Source of the DNA: Bacilli bacterium
GTDB lineage: Bacteria > Bacillota_I > Bacilli_A > RF39 > UBA660
Direction: 5' to 3'
Length of the DNA: 34,105 nucleotides
Assembly: GCA_017441845.1 (NCBI GenBank)
Contig: JAFRVB010000002.1
Coordinates: 1-34,105, forward strand
Part shown: positions 8,508 to 10,968 of the stretch, piece by piece
How positions within the stretch are numbered: the first letter of the stretch is position 1
Layout of the letters: each line of letters begins with the position of its first letter
The notes under the pieces: generated by a model
The model's input: only the letters and a program-made list of their open reading frames with translations
What the model was told of the DNA's origin: nothing
Database searches by the model: none
Made by a program: the position numbers and the translations under genes

Positions 8508-10364
8508 ATGAAAATTTTAGATAAAATTGATAATCCTAAAGATTTAAAAGATCTTAATTTAAAAGAAAAGGATAAATTGGCTCTTGAATTAAGAGAATAT
8601 ATATTAGATGTAGTATCTAAAAATGGGGGTCATTTGGCTTCTAACTTAGGTATTGTTGAATTAACTATAGCGATGCTTTCAGTTTATAATCTACCTAAGG
8701 ATAAAATTGTTTATGATGTTGGTCATCAAAGTTATGTACATAAGATTTTAACTGGTAGAAAAGAAGAATTTAAAACATTACGTAAGTATAAGGGAATGCC
8801 TGGTTTTCCTAAGATAAGTGAATCTAAATATGATAGTTTTGGTACTGGTCATTCCTCTACTTCTATTTCAGCTGCCCTTGGTATGGCTCAAGCTAGAGAT
8901 TTAAAGGGTGAAGATAATGAAGTAATTGCTGTTATTGGTGATGGTGCTTTAACTGGTGGTATGGCTTTTGAAGCTTTAAATGATGCTGGTAGTAGTAAAA
9001 CTAATATTACTGTTATTTTAAATGATAATGAAATGAGTATTTCTAAGAATGTTGGAGGCATGTCATTAAGATTAGGTAAACTTAGAAGTAAAAGATTTTA
9101 TAAAAAATCTAATGAAATAGTTAAAAATAGTCTAAATAAAGTACCTATTGTAGGTACTGGTATGGTTAAAGCTACTAAGAAAGTTAAAAAAGGTATTAAG
9201 AATTTACTTTTACCTAATATGTTATTTGAAGATTTGGGTTTTACTTATTTGGGTCCTGTCGATGGTCATAATATTGAAGATTTAGAAGGAATGTTAAGAA
9301 TAGGTAAAAAGATAGATGGCCCTAAATTAATACATGTTATTACGACTAAAGGTAAAGGATATGAATTTTCTGAAAAGTATCCTGATAAATTTCATGGTAC
9401 TTCTGCTTTTAATATAAAGACTGGTAAAGGATTAAAGAAAAAGAGTGATGATTACTCTAAGATATTTGGTGAAGAATTAGTAAAATTAGCTAGTAAAAAT
9501 AAAAAAATAGTCGCAGTATGTGCAGCTATGAAAACAGGTACTGGTTTAGTTCCATTTAGTGAAAAGTATCCAGATCGTTTCTTTGATGTTGGTATTGCAG
9601 AACAACACGCTTTAACTTTTGCTGCTGGACTTGCTAAAGAAGGTTTTATTCCTTTTGTACCAATATATTCATCTTTTTATCAAAGAGCTTATGATCAAGT
9701 TATTCATGATATTGCAATTCAAAAACTACCAGTAATAATGTGTGTAGATAGAGCTGGTAATGTAGGTAATGATGGTGAAACTCATCAAGGTTTATTTGAT
9801 TTATCTTTCTTTAATTTAGTACCTAATTTAACAATAATGAATCCAAAAGATTTTAAAGAATTAGAATCTATGATGAAATTCGCAACCTTGGCAAACAAAC
9901 CTATCGTAATAAGATATCCTAGGGGTGGCGAAGGAAGTTACAAATTTAGAAGACCTTCTAAGATTGAGATGGGTAAAGCTGAAACTATTTGTGAAGGTAG
10001 TGATGTCACTATTGTTGCGATTGGTAAAATGGTAGATAGAGTTATGGCTGTAAAAGAAGAACTTTTAAAAGATAACATATCTTGTGAAGTTATAAATGCT
10101 CGTTTCTTAAAACCATTTGATGATAAAACTGTCATTGACTCCATTAAAAAAACTAATTTAGTTGTGACAATTGAAGATAGTATTTTAACTGGAGGATTAG
10201 CTTCTAAAGTAAAAGAATTAATCGTTGATAATTCTTTGAATACTAAGCTTATAACTTGTGGTTATCCTGATAAATTTATTCAACATGGTAGTGTTGATGA
10301 ACTTGAAAAAGAGTATGAATTAGATGTAAATTCTATAGTAAATAAAATTAAAAGCAAGTGTTAA
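8508..10364 (+). CDS. dxs: 1-deoxy-D-xylulose-5-phosphate synthase
   Basis: First enzyme of the MEP isoprenoid pathway: condenses pyruvate and glyceraldehyde 3-phosphate, with thiamine diphosphate, to 1-deoxyxylulose 5-phosphate. The 618-residue length is usual. Visible landmarks are DVGHQSYVHK (His73), FGTGHSSTS (His115), the ThDP/Mg motif GDGALTGGMAFEALN (Gly144-Asp145-Gly146) with its paired NDNEMSISKN (172 on), GIAEQHALTFAAGLA with the cofactor-binding glutamate, YSSFYQRAYDQ, and RYPRG near the end. The start follows GGAAGTGA. It stands alone between two terminators, away from other MEP genes, and is the only clear central-metabolism enzyme in this half of the window. The presence of the MEP route is of taxonomic use. 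Confidence 0.97.
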   Translation: MKILDKIDNPKDLKDLNLKEKDKLALELREYILDVVSKNGGHLASNLGIVELTIAMLSVYNLPKDKIVYDVGHQSYVHKILTGRKEEFKTLRKYKGMPGFPKISESKYDSFGTGHSSTSISAALGMAQARDLKGEDNEVIAVIGDGALTGGMAFEALNDAGSSKTNITVILNDNEMSISKNVGGMSLRLGKLRSKRFYKKSNEIVKNSLNKVPIVGTGMVKATKKVKKGIKNLLLPNMLFEDLGFTYLGPVDGHNIEDLEGMLRIGKKIDGPKLIHVITTKGKGYEFSEKYPDKFHGTSAFNIKTGKGLKKKSDDYSKIFGEELVKLASKNKKIVAVCAAMKTGTGLVPFSEKYPDRFFDVGIAEQHALTFAAGLAKEGFIPFVPIYSSFYQRAYDQVIHDIAIQKLPVIMCVDRAGNVGNDGETHQGLFDLSFFNLVPNLTIMNPKDFKELESMMKFATLANKPIVIRYPRGGEGSYKFRRPSKIEMGKAETICEGSDVTIVAIGKMVDRVMAVKEELLKDNISCEVINARFLKPFDDKTVIDSIKKTNLVVTIEDSILTGGLASKVKELIVDNSLNTKLITCGYPDKFIQHGSVDELEKEYELDVNSIVNKIKSKC

Positions 10365-10378
10365 TAACACTTGTTTTA
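10350..10378 (+). terminator. Intrinsic terminator of dxs
   Basis: AAGCAAGTGTT and AACACTTGTTTT form a long stem around the TAA, followed by a weak T-rich tail. Confidence 0.7.
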
Positions 10379-10477: not shown

Positions 10478-10506
10478 TTGACTTTTTTTGCTTCTTTTTG
10501 TACATT
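10478..10506 (+). promoter_or_regulatory. Promoter of the second small RNA candidate
   Basis: TTGACT (10478-10483), a 17-base spacer and TACATT (10501-10506). The predicted start falls at the G-run near 10509-10513. The rest of 10379-10477 is AT-rich with no feature I can support. Confidence 0.5.
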
Positions 10507-10611
10507 TAGGGTGCGTGATAGTAATCACGCCGATATCTCTAACGATTATATGTTAGAGTATATTCAACCGAACCCCCTGAAGAGCCAATCGTTGATTGGC
10601 TCGCTTTTTTT
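10505..10611 (+). ncRNA. Candidate free-standing structured RNA with a three-way junction
   Basis: A GC-richer island between dxs and the next gene. Two hairpins with perfect stems are visible: GCGTGAT/ATCACGC (10513-10519/10524-10530) and CTCTAAC/GTTAGAG (10537-10543/10552-10558). They are enclosed by TTTAGGG (10505-10511) pairing with CCCTGAA (10575-10581), one G-U pair. The single-stranded joining segment 10559-10574 includes CAACCGAAC. A strong terminator (GAGCCAATC/GATTGGCTC, 10582-10602, then Ts) follows. The next gene has its own promoter after the T-run, so this looks like a separate transcript rather than a leader. SRP RNA, tmRNA, RNase P and common riboswitch consensus sequences were considered and do not fit. 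The closing helix partly precedes the predicted start, so its length is uncertain. Confidence 0.58.
10582..10611 (+). terminator. Intrinsic terminator of the small RNA candidate
   Basis: GAGCCAATC, loop GTT, GATTGGCTC, then GC and seven Ts. The stem is perfect and unusually GC-rich for this window. Confidence 0.88.
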
Positions 10612-10612
10612 A

Positions 10613-10621
10613 TGTTATAAT
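10613..10621 (+). promoter_or_regulatory. Extended -10 promoter
   Basis: TGTTATAAT starts two bases after the last terminator T. It drives the gene at 10645. Confidence 0.65.
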
Positions 10622-10644: not shown

Positions 10645-10968
10645 ATGAAAGAATATTTATATAATTATATTAAAGAGATTGATAAATTATTAGAAAGTGA
10701 TAAGAAAATAAGTACTGATGTTATAGAGAGACATTTAATTAAGATTAGTTTCTTTCAACATGAAAGATTAATACATTTATATGTAACCTTATTTTATGCG
10801 ATAATGTTTTTATTATTTTCTGGACTTGGTCTTGTTCATTATATATTCTTTATTATTTCAACTATATTATTAATATTCTTAATATTTTATATAATACATT
10901 ATTTTAGATTAGAAAATGGTGTTCAATACTTATATAAACAGTATGATAAGATGATTGAAAAGAACTAG
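10645..10968 (+). CDS. Small two-helix membrane protein, function unknown
   Basis: 107 residues. A charged helical N-terminus (about 1-45, rich in Lys, Asp and Glu) precedes two closely spaced hydrophobic segments, about 46-65 (LYVTLFYAIMFLLFSGLGLV) and 68-88, and a basic C-terminal helix. Both ends are therefore probably cytoplasmic. No family was recognised. The start follows AGGGTGA. It has its own promoter and terminator on either side, so it is a single-gene unit and the neighbours give no hint of function. Confidence 0.68.
   Translation: MKEYLYNYIKEIDKLLESDKKISTDVIERHLIKISFFQHERLIHLYVTLFYAIMFLLFSGLGLVHYIFFIISTILLIFLIFYIIHYFRLENGVQYLYKQYDKMIEKN

Follow-up and report, generated by a model that had tools for sequence, protein, structure and literature searches.

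A C-rich small RNA gene of an uncultured gut family of Bacilli that appears to serve as an integration site with exchangeable terminators

The window analysed here is the whole 34,105-nt stretch of contig JAFRVB010000002.1 from a Bacilli bacterium. On its forward strand, dxs (8508–10364; Pfam DXP_synthase_N, E = 9.5e-119) is followed by a same-strand ORF for a small membrane protein (10645–10968; no Pfam match). The dxs gene ends with its own terminator-like hairpin (10351–10377), which is detected on both strands. Between the two genes, positions 10478–10611 of the forward strand contain a predicted small RNA gene, designated here as sRNA1.

The gene begins with a sigma-70-type promoter (10478–10506), in which the −35 box TTGACT (10478–10483) and the −10 box TACATT (10501–10506) are separated by a 17-nt spacer. 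The start inferred from the −10 box lies at about 10512–10513, and together with the terminator it defines a predicted transcript of ~100 nt (10512–10611, forward strand). Its extreme 5′ end is occupied by hairpin H1 (10513–10530; 7 bp, loop AGTA), followed by hairpin H2 (10532–10564), which consists of an apical 7-bp stem and a basal 5-bp AU-rich stem with a bulged T. The next segment, CAACCGAACCCCCTGAA (10565–10581), is predicted to be unpaired and is proposed as an antisense seed on the basis of its conservation in homologs and of minimum free energy (MFE) folds; it ends with CCCCCTGAA (10573–10581), the putative attachment-site core (attB) of tyrosine-integrase elements. The intrinsic terminator (10582–10611), recognized by folding and scans, has a 9-bp stem, a GTT loop and a T-run, and it is this part of the gene that appears to be exchangeable.

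The 134-nt region has a folding energy of −40.4 kcal/mol (z = −5.3), and no shuffled sequence folded equally well. The initial annotation had called the terminator the strongest of the window, and the hairpin at 10582–10602 with its T-run indeed ranks first in whole-window scans and contains the most G-C pairs.

A DNA search of 60 related genomes revealed clear relatives of sRNA1. In the host's family, the exact motif AACCRAN{0,2}CCCCCTGAA was found in 184 of 291 genomes and in 108 of 150 genera, usually as one copy, with a single match for the reversed control. A covariance model built on structure-fitted relatives detected sRNA1 in 91 of 117 family genomes, approximately once per genome (six of these matches are weak), and in the host's own genome the R2 covariance model matched 10510–10581 (79.5 bits, E = 2e-17). 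Nothing convincing was found outside the family among 296 genomes of the class: four matches are weak and lack a promoter or terminator, and the one strong match (G400) looks misbinned because it lies on a 3-kb contig. The occurrence of sRNA1 in other families of the class was therefore rejected, the hits being weak or contaminant-like. A phage origin was also rejected, since motif matches in viral contigs were mostly due to chance and lacked the promoter and hairpins. The motif-bearing contigs are assigned mostly to uncultured Bacilli, Tenericutes, Mollicutes and Erysipelotrichaceae, and many isolate names indicate gut or rumen samples.

The search of Rfam 15 with the window and the loci of five relatives gave no match at the gathering threshold; the best sub-threshold sRNA match was McaS (16.5 bits against a cutoff of 42), and nothing meaningful was seen below the threshold. 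This agrees with the initial annotation, which had recognized no known RNA family. The comparative sequence evidence indicates that sRNA1 is a real RNA gene, new to Rfam and present in most members of one uncultured gut family.

The promoter-like boxes had already been pointed out in the initial annotation. Their significance comes from their conservation in relatives, since promoter-like matches in AT-rich sequence occur at chance frequency (26 such sites in the region against 26.2 in shuffles). Among ~195 relatives, the promoter is strongly conserved as TTGACA or TTGACT with TATNAT at a near-fixed distance to the motif, and the spacer is 17 nt long in 178 of 197 well-scoring cases.

The gene upstream of sRNA1 is recG in 106 of 190 loci, and the genes downstream are nearly all different between relatives. 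The position of the ORF at 10645, on the same strand and 3′ of sRNA1, would suit a cis-acting leader or attenuator of the downstream gene, but that gene differs in nearly every relative, a strong terminator lies in between, and the ORF has its own promoter-like site (10592–10621); we regard this explanation as extremely improbable and rejected it for the lack of downstream synteny. Covariation, synteny and presence throughout the family strongly support the initial annotation's proposal of a free-standing structured RNA, and the predicted gene has the features of a free-standing bacterial sRNA: its own promoter, an intrinsic terminator, an intergenic position and conserved structure.

Relatives share a common plan, TTGACA-17-TATNAT, H1 at the expected start site, H2 of the form CTCTTACG...GTGAGAG, the unpaired segment CAACCRAA(A)CCCCCTGAA, and a terminator. 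In an alignment of 97 distinct sequences, two-sided compensatory changes were found in 19 of 19 base pairs (all 7 of H1 and all 12 of H2). Two-sided cells numbered 281, compared with 54 in shuffles, and pairing held in 96.2% of cells, compared with 26–50% for slid controls; these counts are inflated by the fitting of the alignment to the structure. Plain MFE folding, which does not depend on the alignment, gave exactly two hairpins in 182 of 185 bodies, compared with 54 of 185 mononucleotide-shuffled ones.

The initial annotation had drawn two perfect 7-bp hairpins closed by a third helix and had proposed a search for compensatory changes in relatives. The two hairpins (10513–10519/10524–10530 and 10537–10543/10552–10558) exist and covary. 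The closing helix (10505/10581) can be drawn in the window, but all seven of its positions can pair in just 2 of 185 relatives, no better than in shuffles, and its 5′ arm TTTAGGG begins within the −10 box and runs on beyond it, ahead of the predicted start. For these reasons the third helix was discarded, and the predicted structure is a pair of hairpins followed by an unpaired C-rich segment and the terminator.

The segment 10565–10581 is near-invariant in 185 motif-found homologs, for which conservation is partly imposed because the search required the motif, and it is also well kept in 20 homologs found by the covariance model alone. The C-rich seed CCCCCUGAA is predicted to be unpaired and is conserved, as in the class of C-rich antisense sRNAs (RsaE/RoxS, LhrC and csRNA type).

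The 3′ part of the gene behaves differently from its body. Among 185 pairs of relatives with tails at least 85% identical, the bodies are less than 75% identical in 156; conversely, among 313 pairs with bodies at least 85% identical, the tails are less than 60% identical in 271. The sequence 3′ of CCCCCTGAA is common to genomes with very different sRNA bodies. Many contigs end within a few hundred bases 3′ of sRNA1, as is expected beside repeated elements.

A tyrosine-integrase ORF adjoins the site (attL) in 44 sRNA1 loci, always in convergent orientation and mostly ending 85–180 bp past the core; one example integrase (Phage_integrase, PF00589, E = 1.1e-25) has a MobV relaxase beside it. Direct copies of CCCCCTGAA marking the other end (attR) lie 8.3–13.4 kb downstream in five genomes (G006, G305, G136, G087 and G011), two of which have additional tandem copies, and the distal copies are usually followed by another terminator-like hairpin. 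No integrase adjoins the window's own site (10573–10581). These comparisons point to CCCCCTGAA as an attB core within an RNA gene, where attL retains the promoter, hairpins and seed and the element brings a new terminator. An integron-like attI was considered and rejected, since the ATTCAAC motif is inconsistent across homologs and no integron features were seen. The role of the sRNA 3′ end as a putative integration site with exchangeable terminators, like the partner RNA described below, goes beyond the initial annotation.

It should be noted that the element at the sRNA site in G136 (L285:1100–9740) is an 8.6-kb mobilizable element, which carries the integrase, a MobV/Mob_Pre relaxase, a helicase-like ATPase, an ABC-F ATPase (NCBIfam ribosomal-protection-like, below cutoff) and a zeta-toxin/kinase-like protein. 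Two-element tandem arrays at one sRNA site, with further CCCCCTGAA copies between, were observed in L283 (G006) and in L286 and L287 (G087).

Since the core falls in the stretch of the gene that is conserved best and integrases flank 44 loci, one could suppose that CCCCCTGAA is conserved chiefly for the integrases and that the RNA is a side effect of keeping an attachment region. Most sRNA1 copies are without an adjacent integrase, however, and outside the core the hairpins, the promoter and the upstream AACCRAA are also conserved, with covariation in the hairpins. A host would gain no benefit from retaining attB, and integrases typically adapt to conserved RNA genes such as those of tRNA and tmRNA. 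We consider this supposition quite improbable and retain the reading of a conserved sRNA gene used as attB.

A search for complements of the seed brought up a second family-wide RNA, sRNA2. In the host genome it is located at G000:C4:14758–14815 (loci L356 and L334), and in many genomes it is encoded divergently just upstream of recG. It has its own promoter, two hairpins, the near-invariant GCTAGTATCACACTAGCCAACCCCTTTTTATTC and a terminator hairpin. Of 193 family genomes, 167 contain it, and the control gave no matches; among 198 genomes of the class, it was seen in no other family. Rfam gave no match for it either.

The sRNA2 terminator loop UCAGGGGG is complementary to the sRNA1 core CCCCCUGA, the relation of a G-rich loop to a C-rich seed expected of an RsaI-like RNA. 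The loop CAGGGGG is present in 107 of 126 sRNA2 copies, preceded by U in 96 of the 107, and the 5′ stem arms around it take 84 distinct forms. For the host genome, the calculated energy of the seed–loop duplex is −18.2 to −19.0 kcal/mol. Of 2000 shuffled seeds, 2 reached −18.2 kcal/mol, and of 2000 shuffled loops, none did. Five base pairs (CCCCU/AGGGG) of the loop could also form inside sRNA2.

The co-occurrence of sRNA1 and sRNA2 (Fisher p = 5e-5) is indicative, because the genomes are linked by common descent. Joint loss of sRNA1 and the sRNA2 loop was rejected: the loop is kept in 20 of 25 genomes without detected sRNA1, and this persistence suggests that sRNA1 may not be its sole partner. 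The idea that the sRNA2 loop is a second att site was likewise rejected, with an integrase downstream in 0 of 80 sRNA2 loci.

The search for mRNA targets gave ~36 matches of CAGGGGG near ATG in 20 genomes, against ~25 in reversed controls, with no gene in common, and the patterns AGGGGGTT and CAGGGGGT showed no clear enrichment over controls; none of the three patterns gave a recurrent gene. The lack of an enriched target motif, together with the strong structural covariation and the near-universal single copy in the family, would be in keeping with a protein-binding or housekeeping structured RNA, whose C-rich segment binds protein or joins a tertiary fold. Against this, MFE folds leave 98% of the conserved segment open, and its complementarity to the loop of sRNA2 is exact. 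Since the sequence of the body hairpins is free to vary, a protein would have to recognize them by shape alone. We judge such a role unlikely, albeit less so than the other alternatives considered.

With a probability of about 0.8, we interpret sRNA1 as a C-rich antisense sRNA that is probably antagonised by a partner RNA, and its gene as being at the same time an attB hotspot. The sequence comparisons indicate the RNA gene with its structure and distribution, as well as its att role and the swapping of terminators; antisense action through the C-rich seed is suggested by analogy and by complementarity. sRNA1 would act in trans as an antisense RNA of ~100 nt, in which the two covarying hairpins would shield the 5′ side and expose the single-stranded seed CAACCRAA(A)CCCCCUGAA ahead of the terminator. 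The seed would most likely pair with G-rich RNA, namely presumed Shine-Dalgarno-type sites of mRNAs and the loop of sRNA2. The complementarity and the analogy with RsaE/RsaI suggest that sRNA2 may serve as a sponge or co-regulator of sRNA1. Mobilizable elements with tyrosine integrases would recombine at the 9-mer CCCCCTGAA and place a new terminator hairpin directly after it, leaving the sRNA body and seed intact and the 3′ end exchanged.

A more far-reaching version, which we offer tentatively and hold to be possible rather than probable, is a family-ancestral circuit of two sRNAs, in which the att core is also part of the regulatory seed, elements re-terminate sRNA1, and the sRNA2 loop titrates it. 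If this were true, the recombination core being part of the seed, integrases would be locked to an indispensable sequence, and every element would re-terminate, and might retune, a host sRNA.

In general kind, sRNA1 belongs to what is known, being a C-rich sRNA and an RNA gene serving as attB. Its closest precedents are csRNA3/phiOXC141, for the effect of an element on an sRNA, and RsaE/RsaI. In S. pneumoniae, the prophage phiOXC141 replaces the 3′ stem-loop of csRNA3 (ccnC) and strengthens the sRNA, and at attL the native csRNA3 promoter and 5′ stem-loop are kept (PMC9764711). The likeness lies in a small antisense RNA gene that is itself attB, with the 5′ part kept and the 3′ stem-loop swapped (PMC9764711); it is one of architecture, not of direct sequence comparison, the Rfam search having given no match, and sRNA1 is known from sequence alone. 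For csRNA3, the target comC is known and functional data exist (PMC9764711). The two cases differ in that the element examined here is mobilizable and not evidently a phage, the core here precedes the terminator, and the swap is seen in many genera of a family, not within a single species.

The sRNA RsaE/RoxS of S. aureus has a C-rich (UCCCC) seed and is sponged by G-rich stretches of RsaI (PMC9217828). By analogy, sRNA1 has a C-rich seed and a second sRNA a complementary G-rich stretch, whereas sRNA1 and sRNA2 have no Rfam match to these families and the G-rich element of sRNA2 is a terminator loop. As at tRNA and tmRNA integration sites, the element inserts into a conserved RNA gene, in its 3′ part, and restores the gene, but here what is replaced is the terminator alone and not a functional RNA domain, and the identity block is about 9–11 bp.

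What is unusual is the combination of a recombination core inside a conserved seed, a family-wide exchange of terminators and a complementary loop in another conserved RNA. For a large uncultured gut lineage, the analysis adds two uncatalogued RNA families with good support. It also pinpoints a site at which mobilizable elements insert throughout the family; among these elements is one with an ABC-F gene that is related to ribosomal-protection proteins. The csRNA3 precedent showed that host behaviour can change when an element modifies the 3′ end of an sRNA (PMC9764711). Since the same architecture recurs across many genera, the questions of why elements choose sRNA genes and of terminator tuning become comparative and testable.

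Two further arrangements of related sequences were observed. In L314:1638–2111 (G108), GAGTACCAAAACCCCCTGAA occurs twice, 398 bp apart, within a tandem repeat and without the sRNA fold. In L033 (G216:C4:53339 and 53578), a promoter-less second copy of GTATTCAACCAAAACCCCCTGAA lies in inverted orientation ~240 bp from the sRNA.
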